This document shows, piece after piece, positions 33,235 to 35,010 of a stretch of DNA of 64,000 nt. The stretch is from Hydrogenimonas urashimensis. GTDB taxonomy: Bacteria > Campylobacterota > Campylobacteria > Campylobacterales > Hydrogenimonadaceae. A program made the translations under genes and the position numbers. Where the stretch lies: assembly GCF_016593255.1 (NCBI RefSeq), contig NZ_AP023212.1, forward strand, positions 1,042,001 through 1,106,000. Reading direction: 5' to 3'. Position 1 is the first letter of the stretch. Each line of letters begins with the position of its first letter. The notes beneath the pieces are model-generated. The model did not search any database and had not been told where the DNA came from. It saw only the letters and a program-made list of their open reading frames with translations.

Positions 33235-34785
33235 TTATACCCCTTCGCACTCATCGATCTGGCACTCGTCCGGAAGCATGGAGAGGTAGCTGTTCAAAGC
33301 GCCGATGTAGGCTTTGGCACTGGCGAGCATCGTGTCGATGCTAAGGCCGTGGCCGATCACCGCGTTTTTCGTCTCGTCGAACCGGACATTGACCACCACT
33401 TTCGCGAGCGCGTCTTTGCCCTGGGTCACCGCTTCGACACGGTAATCCATCAGCTGTCCGGTATGTCCGCTGATTCTATCGATCGTTTTGAAGATCGCAT
33501 CCATCGTTCCGTCACCGATACCTGCATCGAGCAGCTCCTTGCCTTCGTGCCTGATTTTGACGGCGGCACTGGGTACCCCGCCCGAACAGTCGGCGATCTG
33601 CAGCCCCACCAGTTCGTATGTCTGGGGGATGTTGGTGATCTCGTTGGCGATCAGCATGCGTATATCGTCGTCGTAGATCTCTTTTTTCTTGTCAGCCAGG
33701 ATTTTGAACCGTTCGAACGCTTTGTTTAGATCCTCGGGGCCAAGCTCGAAACCGAGCTCTTCGAGACGCTCTTTGAAAGCGTGGCGGCCCGAGTGTTTTC
33801 CCAGTACGATGCGGTTCGCCTCCAGGCCGATATCTTCGGCCCGCATGATCTCGTATGTCTCCTGACACTTCAAGACACCGTCTTGGTGGATGCCGCTTTC
33901 GTGTGCGAAGGCGTTCTTGCCCACGATCGCCTTGTTGGGCTGGGGCTCGATACCGGTAATCGCCGCGACAAGGCGGCTTGTGGGATAGATCTCTTTCGTA
34001 TTGATGCCGGTTTCGACATCCGTAAAGATGTCGGAGCGGGTTTTTATCGCCATGACGATCTCTTCGAGGGCCGCGTTACCCGCGCGCTCACCGAGTCCGT
34101 TGATCGTGCACTCCACCTGCCGCGCACCGTTCATGACCGAAAAGAGCGAATTGGCCACTGCCAGCCCGAGGTCGTTGTGGCAGTGGACCGAAATGATCGC
34201 GCGCTCTCCCACATGACTGTGAAGCTCTCTGATCATCTCTCCCATCTCCTGGGGCAGGCGGTAACCCACCGTATCGGGAATGTTGAGCGTCGTCGCACCC
34301 GCTTCGATGACGGCATCGAGAATCTCTTTCAAAAATCCCATATCGCTTCGTCCGGCATCTTCGCAACTGAATTCGACATCCGCGGTGTAACCCTTGGCCA
34401 GTTTCACCGCCTCGACGGCTCTGCGCACCACCTCTTCGGGCCGCATTTTCAGCTTGTGCTCCATGTGTATCGGGCTCGTGGCGATAAAGGTATGGATCCG
34501 TTTGTTGGCCGCCGGTTCGAGGGATTCCCCGGCCTGGACAATATCTTTCTCGACAGCGCGTGCCAGGGAGCAGACGGTGCTTTTCTTCACCGCCTCGGCG
34601 ATCCGGCGGATCGCGTCGAAATCGCCGGGACTCGCCGCCGCGAATCCCGCTTCGATGATGTCCACGCCCAGCTTTTCGAGCTGCATGGCGATCTTTATCT
34701 TCTCTTCGGTGTTCATCGACGCACCGGGGCTCTGCTCCCCGTCTCGTAATGTGGTATCGAATATATAGACTTTCTCTTTTTTCAT
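33235..34785 (-). CDS. leuA: 2-isopropylmalate synthase
   Basis: A 516-residue enzyme that condenses acetyl-CoA with 2-oxoisovalerate in the first step of leucine synthesis. The catalytic TIM barrel begins [17 protein letters not shown], with the metal ligands in [14 protein letters not shown] and the [13 protein letters not shown] segment; a linker (HESGIHQDG) leads to the C-terminal LeuA regulatory domain (about 390-516), where leucine gives feedback inhibition. The full length suggests a feedback-sensitive form rather than a citramalate synthase. A 29-residue leader peptide gene lies just upstream (34835-34924), suggesting control by translation of that peptide. Confidence 0.96.
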
Positions 34786-34834
34786 AGGTTCAATCCTTCA
34801 TCTTCTAAAAAAAATCGGTTTGTCGTTGTGGAGA

Positions 34835-34924
34835 TTAAAAAAGGGGAGATAGGAGAGTGTTCTTTATTTCGATTTTCGGCAAATGCTTGATCGCGATAAT
34901 ACGGCCGGTTTCCGTCCCGTGCAT
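34835..34924 (-). CDS. Putative leader peptide of leuA
   Basis: A 29-codon open frame read toward leuA: MHGTETGRIIAIKHL followed by PKIEIKNTLLSPLF and TAA. It has one of the strongest ribosome sites in the window (GGAAAGGAG before ACG-ATG). Five Ile and four Leu occur in 29 residues, including LLSPL just before a CCCCTTTTTT tract that overlaps the stop. The frame ends 49 bases before leuA. Branched-chain leader peptides use stalling at such codons for attenuation; no clear pair of competing hairpins was found by eye. A true small protein is a less likely alternative. Confidence 0.5.
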   Translation of the reverse strand: MHGTETGRIIAIKHLPKIEIKNTLLSPLF

Positions 34925-34929
34925 CGTCT

Positions 34930-35010
34930 CTCCTTTCCTATTGAATTATGGAAGTATATCATATTGTCCCGCGACCTTTACTGATTTTTATTTTCTCATG
35001 ATAATTTTTT
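34930..35010 (-). promoter_or_regulatory. Probable leuA promoter region
   Basis: Read on the minus strand, the sequence after pssA contains GGGACAATATGATATACTTCC (20 bases shown in part); TATGAT and TATACT are candidate -10 elements about 30-40 bases before the leader-peptide ATG. No good -35 is seen. It is placed between pssA and the leader ORF. Confidence 0.4.

Follow-up and report, generated by a model that had tools for sequence, protein, structure and literature searches.

The window analysed here, a stretch of 64,000 nucleotides of Hydrogenimonas urashimensis (NCBI RefSeq assembly GCF_016593255.1, contig NZ_AP023212.1, positions 1,042,001 to 1,106,000), carries a short reading frame that is flanked on its 5' side by pssA (TIGR00473, with Pfam in agreement) and on its 3' side by leuA (TIGR00973, 709.9 bits; NF002086, 786.6 bits; Pfam again in agreement). 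The frame occupies 34835-34924 of the minus strand, with its ATG at 34924-34922, 29 codons (MHGTETGRIIAIKHLPKIEIKNTLLSPLF) and a TAA at 34837-34835. The sequence GGAAAGGAG is found immediately 5' of the ATG, CCCCTTTTTT at 34846-34837 extends into the TAA, and the ATG of leuA follows at 34785, 49 nt past the leader. The features to which we refer below are these:

34953..34963, minus strand: putative extended -10 element TATGATATACT, ending 28 nt 5' of the LeuL start
34928..34934, minus strand: LeuL Shine-Dalgarno AGGAGAG, predicted 5' arm of a leader hairpin, complementary to CTCTCCT and covarying with it across genus-level groups
34835..34924, minus strand: leuL leader ORF, 29 codons plus TAA, a conserved frame with LeuL-like ORFs in 161 of 200 loci
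34859..34882, minus strand: LPKIEIKN codons, candidate nascent-peptide motif on the basis of pN/pS and of its recurrence among leaders
34851..34857, minus strand: CTCTCCT, predicted 3' arm pairing with the LeuL Shine-Dalgarno, from duplex and covariation tests
34850..34855, minus strand: CTC CTA, candidate regulatory Leu codons, present as this pair in 14 of 15 genus loci
34801..34834, minus strand: spacer, by its composition a candidate Rho-loading region jointly with the LeuL tail
34793..34798, minus strand: leuA Shine-Dalgarno AAGGAT, whose pairing with the LeuL tail is at chance level
33235..34785, minus strand: leuA, 2-isopropylmalate synthase, from NCBIfam and Pfam matches

In 13 of 15 loci of the genus the LeuL start was preceded, at a distance of 24 to 30 nt, by T[AG]TGNTATA[AC]T, so leuL probably opens its own transcript; a sigma-70 scanner, which also requires a -35 element, did not call the extended -10 element at 34953..34963. 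In two relatives (G002 and G008) this usual -10 element was missing and a copy of a repeat with the ends TTTTGCGTAANNTCAG lay directly before leuL (loci L003 and L012). The repeat, like a MITE or REP element, numbered 71 copies in G002, where it often formed inverted pairs about 145-150 bp apart, 19 in G008 and 6 in the window's own genome, with copies outside the window at G000:C1 9121-9242 and 1504841-1505001, and its reversed control gave 0 matches in all 18 genomes of the genus. The window leader taken alone had an unremarkable and uninformative minimum free energy (z -0.40). No Rfam match above the gathering score was obtained in the window, the leader region giving two chance-level matches (E 1.7 and 3.2), no Pfam or NCBIfam family matched the leader peptide, and the leader had no match in the plasmid collection.

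A leader of this kind is already known under the name LeuL from a 2013 study whose first author is reportedly Porcelli. LeuL was named in C. jejuni, where the published peptide has 28 aa, with orthologs in most Epsilonproteobacteria that carry leucine genes, and shares with the frame described here the gene position, the 20-35 aa peptide and the C-terminal leucines (PMC3847290). The window frame, with its 29 aa, its distance of 49 nt from leuA and GGAAAGGAG as ribosome-binding site, falls within the description of LeuL as a 20-35 aa ORF with an RBS upstream of leuA. More recently, Ribo-seq in C. jejuni gave translation-initiation peaks at LeuL (PMC11955535, 2025). The original prediction had called branched-chain attenuation not well documented in Campylobacterota, a statement which these two papers overtake. 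The passages of PMC11955535 on its tBLASTn searches place leader peptides "generally ... only in C. jejuni or related Campylobacter species", a range which is extended for LeuL by our comparison of upstream sequences by position. The leader itself is thus of a known kind, and two further conserved features are described here, namely the pairing of its Leu codons with its Shine-Dalgarno and the LPKIEIKN motif. Supplementary figures apart, neither was found in our searches of the open-access literature; the motif may be visible in the peptide sequences of Figure S7 of PMC3847290.

A LeuL-type leader was present upstream of leuA in 161 of 200 related loci, which belonged to 18 families of the same order and had been taken mostly from the high-scoring LeuA matches and not at random. 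The existence of a real leader peptide ahead of leuA, as first proposed from the window, is therefore borne out in many families of the order, and the frame, which stops or frameshifts in close relatives would have discredited, was open in all 16 loci of the window's genus. (The collection holds 18 genomes of this genus, of which G009 had no leuA match and the locus of G017 no gene start; 15 loci entered the table filtered for a Shine-Dalgarno, and L004, found by its motif and without a recognised Shine-Dalgarno, makes 16.) Elsewhere the leader was found in 31 of 32 loci of family f10, 27 of 28 of f20, 29 of 31 of f5, 28 of 33 of f8 and 17 of 20 of f18, and in the small families f9 (6/6), f22 (2/2), f2, f4 and f11 (1/1 each) and f12 (1/2). 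Several families had a leuA mostly without LeuL-like leader (f15 0/9, f13 0/3, f14 0/3, f17 0/2, f21 0/1 and f6 1/9). The 39 regions not counted as LeuL include three LeuL-like cases lost to our filters: the leader of L164 bears the motif and stands 285 nt from leuA, and those of L195 and L199 lack an LL pair. After exclusion of L004 and L035, counted as present by motif only, and of five identical duplicates, 154 unique leaders remained for the tests below; the 30 LeuL-less control loci were those at which no candidate ORF passed. A class-wide draw of 121 genomes, 64 of them with leuA, came entirely from the same order and contained no outgroup. Among named records, those of Hydrogenimonas (L239, L247, L251 and L269) had leader peptides and Shine-Dalgarnos identical to those of the genus loci, and identical pairs were likewise found in Nitratiruptor (f18), Sulfurospirillum (f20), Campylobacter concisus (f10) and Sulfurovum (f5). 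Of 17 leaders read among the best 80 of 350 named loci, 16 were LeuL-like, Arcobacter nitrofigilis (L277) having none; these best 80 include C. concisus and C. majalis and no C. jejuni record.

Substitution patterns, counted pairwise without a tree, show codon-level selection on the frame. Over 24 aligned codons of the 15 genus loci, pN/pS was 0.163 in the leader frame compared with 1.77 and 1.92 in the other two, and it fell to 0.032 over LPKIEIKNxLL. In five motif-bearing groups (f1, f20 g20+g29, f18, f10 g91+g92 and f9) the 12 codons before LL gave values of 0.06-0.17, compared with 0.83 to 7.2, one undefined, in the other frames; for this set the stretch had been shortened from 14 to 12 codons, f10 g10 had been omitted and f18 had been re-anchored on its own motif, which changed its value from 0.47 to 0.17. 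The omitted f10 g10, mostly motif-bearing, had a pN/pS of 0.61 (14 codons, 7 loci, one with an unrelated peptide), and coding constraint was weaker in motif-less groups (0.43 in f8, 0.68 in f5 g54). The motif occurred in 77 of the 154 unique leaders, L167 with LTKIEIKN being classed as without it, so that, by these comparisons, the LPKIEIKN residues before the Leu codons are conserved at the amino-acid level in about half of the leaders. A degenerate pattern of the motif matched in 77 of 398 genomes, at one site each (some double-listed because of the variable gap), compared with 1 match of its reversed control, and in all 16 genus genomes with a match the site lay just upstream of leuA, coordinates being compared by eye. 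Motif-less leaders (f5, f8, part of f10 and of f20) are scattered within families, a patchiness which suggests repeated loss of the motif. A second peptide type, KIYIFIYKLSLLNLL, was nearly fixed in f10 g34, a genus of the Campylobacter family (L162 and L155 among its loci), where 7 of 8 unique leaders carry it and L165 differs by one residue; it is a possible alternative nascent-chain motif.

The peptide had also been singled out as rich in Ile and Leu. With 9 of 29 residues against 16.6% expected from genome usage the enrichment is marginal (P=0.04), and in one genome such a composition could be due to chance, which does not hold for the conservation of the frame. The Leu half of this signal endured, Leu codons persisting where the peptide otherwise differs, whereas the Ile half did not, most Ile residues being part of LPKIEIKN and lost with it. 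Three Leu residues lie in LLSPLF, the last six residues of the window leader, and the CTC-CTA pair was kept in 14 of 15 genus loci. In 400 kb of the genome CTA makes up 2.3% of Leu codons, but CTC 32% and CTT 20%. The LL codons were nearly frozen in f1, f20 and f10 g91+g92 (pS 0.11, 0.00 and 0.00) compared with the codons preceding them (0.74, 0.46 and 0.49), and they were synonymously variable in f18 (0.41), f9 (0.31), f8 (0.66) and f5 g54 (0.26). Taken with the pN/pS of the motif, the near-fixed CTC-CTA indicates constraint at both levels in the window's genus: selection preserves the amino acids of the peptide but the nucleotides of the Leu codons.

The Leu-codon segment of the window, CTCTCCT, is the complement of the LeuL Shine-Dalgarno AGGAGAG. 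CUC-CUN codons by themselves already supply the CUCCU part of this pairing. They do not supply its flanks, which covary, AGGAGGATAGA with TCTATCCTCCT in f5 and AGGAGAGTA with TACTCTTCT in f8. Across the 154 leaders the duplex of the tail with its own Shine-Dalgarno had a mean of -10.81 kcal/mol, compared with -9.50 kcal/mol when Shine-Dalgarnos were permuted among 29 genus-level groups (P 0.0002-0.0098 over 20 draws; median P 0.02 at the level of 13 families), 29 being an undercount with f8 loci L172-L201 lumped as one. Pairing of the tail with the LeuL Shine-Dalgarno was also stronger than with shuffled Shine-Dalgarnos (-11.09 vs -7.36 kcal/mol), and 78 of the 154 leaders paired better than synonymous recodings drawn from leuA codon usage at P<=0.05 (mean z -1.73). 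The recoding test was weak for the window itself (P=0.06), for its genus (4 of 15 loci at P<=0.05) and for f18, of Nitratiruptor type (0 of 16). With the sequences arranged on the Shine-Dalgarno core and the first LL, and hence independently of pairing, register 0 gave 70% standard pairs compared with 44-64% when slid; covariation of the flanks in this arrangement was modest (30 draws, with a median P of 0.015 and a highest P of 0.145). No pairs were counted on a MAFFT alignment of 46 leaders chosen from the 154, since several of its rows have the Shine-Dalgarno 1-2 nt out of register. Among 86 genes of the window's genome that have a GGAG Shine-Dalgarno, 9 have an equally strong complement downstream of it; given this frequency and the P of 0.06, the case for pairing is one that rests on conservation across lineages and not on the window alone. 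On that comparative footing, the Leu codons are complementary to the Shine-Dalgarno of their own ORF and the two covary across genera.

Attenuation by termination/antitermination was proposed for LeuL of C. jejuni, where rare Leu codons were noted, and the passages in question leave the kind of terminator unstated (PMC3847290). In its classical form, stalling at the Leu codons would pick either an antiterminator or an intrinsic terminator with a U-tract. Such a mechanism would agree with the closeness of the Leu codons to the end of the leader ORF, with the short LeuL RNA of C. jejuni, which reportedly ends shortly past the stop codon (PMC3847290), and with CCCCTTTTTT at the stop codon of the window, a T-tract in which the original prediction had seen a hint that translation and termination are coupled. 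That tract did not prove to be conserved: six Ts no more than 12 nt away from the stop were found in just 3 of 15 genus loci (L001, L005 and L008), in 2 of which they extend into the stop codon, and no terminator-like site lies nearby. Such sites were detected in 3 of the 154 leaders, with about 1.2 expected from shuffles, and none in the window between 34700 and 35100, on which grounds an intrinsic terminator was rejected as a conserved part of the leader. The short C. jejuni RNA fits Rho termination followed by trimming to the hairpin, and fits an intrinsic terminator too. The two further conserved features of the leader point away from an intrinsic-terminator mechanism, and we regard classical attenuation, for which antiterminator pairings were covered by a view of the folds of 31 leaders, as unlikely.

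The RNA between leuL and leuA has a composition of another kind. Pooled spacers contained C at 0.167 and G at 0.080, and C exceeded G in 142 of 154 spacers, 12 being exceptions, compared with 19 of the 30 LeuL-less controls (Fisher P=1.3e-4), these control loci coming largely from other families than the leader-bearing ones. In the window, a 75-nt stretch over the LeuL tail and the spacer contains 23 C and 6 G; among 211 control upstream regions of the genome, 4 were as unbalanced (3 of 114 in a smaller control). C-rich, G-poor RNA is typical of Rho-loading RNA. RNA of this type would be exposed past the leader, as in a Rho-dependent attenuator, and the Rho RNA-binding domain was found in 25 of 31 genomes searched, the window's own included. 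The spacer thus resembles Rho-loading RNA, and its composition suggests a role for Rho.

In E. coli tnaC, Rho-dependent attenuation is brought about by an arrest peptide which stalls the ribosome at the stop codon, responds to high tryptophan and serves catabolism. LeuL as we propose it would resemble tnaC in that conserved residues precede the pause site and the spacer loads Rho once the ribosome leaves; it differs in its Leu codons and in serving synthesis, Rho and arrest being candidates in the case of LeuL. LeuL could be a true arrest peptide of the TnaC type, with LPKIEIKN in the exit tunnel stalling the ribosome on free leucine or a pathway intermediate and not on uncharged tRNA. Conserved residues directly before the pause codon, as in TnaC, are found in the 77 motif leaders, in every one of which 0 or 1 residue separates the end of the motif from LL, and the constraint on it is at the amino-acid level; Leu runs were also longer in motif-less leaders (mean 3.66 vs 2.78 with the motif, uncorrected for relatedness). 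Against a free-leucine sensor stand the other 77 of the 154 leaders, which lack the motif: among these, f5, f8 and f10 g34 keep both the Leu runs and the pairing with the Shine-Dalgarno, so the motif cannot be the sole sensor. Moreover, a biosynthetic gene would need leucine-bound arrest to act with inverted sign. Such an arrest peptide seems to us distinctly improbable as the explanation of the locus.

The closest parallel that we found besides LeuL itself is the actinobacterial LEU element, in which a Leu-codon run of the leader is likewise proposed to pair with a Shine-Dalgarno, that of leuA, in a pseudoknot or alternative hairpin, instead of the leader's own as in LeuL (PMC1262725, 2005). 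Translational attenuation of this type would have the Leu-codon run sequester the leuA Shine-Dalgarno until a stalled ribosome frees it, and it draws on this precedent and on the identity of the Leu codons with an anti-Shine-Dalgarno sequence. At our loci the LeuL Shine-Dalgarno was a better partner for the tail than that of leuA in 147 of 154 loci, the pairing of the tail with the leuA Shine-Dalgarno was at the level of shuffled sequences (-5.20 vs -4.92 kcal/mol, mean of 154 loci), and the computed accessibility of the latter hardly moved, staying at 0.55 to 0.57, when the tail was covered. Sequestration of the leuA Shine-Dalgarno was rejected on these duplex and accessibility tests, and we hold translational attenuation to be very doubtful. 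In a further reading, the hairpin of Shine-Dalgarno and anti-Shine-Dalgarno would protect the 5' end of the mRNA or determine how stable it is, or would pause RNA polymerase, with leucine control minor: its 5' arm does lie near the predicted RNA 5' end, a -10 element ending 24-30 nt before the start codon implying a 5' UTR of about 17-23 nt, but the conserved Leu codons and the peptide motif would be left unexplained, and we give this role little credence.

The reading that we prefer, to which we assign an even chance, is that leuL-leuA is attenuated in response to leucine by way of the ribosome and with no intrinsic terminator, a mechanism in which the parts played by Rho, stalling and the response to leucine are inferred. 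A first ribosome would start on leuL once the 5' end of the transcript has emerged. With leucyl-tRNA plentiful, it would pass the Leu codons, terminate and depart. The Leu-codon segment would then pair with the LeuL Shine-Dalgarno and bar further ribosomes from the leader, and the C-rich, G-poor stretch behind it, now bare, would load Rho ahead of leuA, or leave the RNA open to decay. Under leucine shortage the ribosome would stall on the Leu codons, with LPKIEIKN in the exit tunnel assisting where this motif is present, and the stalled ribosome would cover the 3' arm, keep the leuL start open and shield the spacer, leaving leuA to be transcribed and translated. One short segment would thereby serve both as leucine sensor and as lock on its own start site. 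In the presumed geometry, a ribosome at the Leu codons would cover the 3' arm and have LPKIEIKN in the initial section of its exit tunnel. In 130 of 154 leaders, 5-9 codons separate the first Leu of the LL pair from the end of the ORF, so even at termination the ribosome may keep the arm partly covered, and only its release would let the arm close on the LeuL Shine-Dalgarno. A more far-reaching version, which we put forward tentatively and as rather less probable, is that LeuL represents a new type of attenuator in which the sensor codons are the leader's own anti-Shine-Dalgarno, LPKIEIKN tunes or triggers the arrest, Rho terminates, and motif-less lineages compensate by longer Leu runs.

The passages of PMC3847290 on LeuL propose termination and mention neither the pairing of Shine-Dalgarno and Leu codons nor LPKIEIKN. 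Stalling, RNA refolding and Rho are coupled, much as in the model preferred here, at the toiL-topAI uORF of E. coli, where toiL is proposed to control the ribosome-binding site of topAI, whereas the conserved LeuL helix would cover LeuL's own (PMC12121999). The original proposal of LeuL as a termination/antitermination leader was made by analogy. Should leuL-leuA indeed lock itself and depend on Rho, the leader would be an attenuator that can do without terminator or antiterminator hairpins, a single segment acting as both codons and anti-Shine-Dalgarno. The conserved LPKIEIKN chain is also a directly testable candidate for a nascent-peptide part in the sensing of amino-acid starvation, in a group that includes human pathogens as well as chemolithotrophs of vents.
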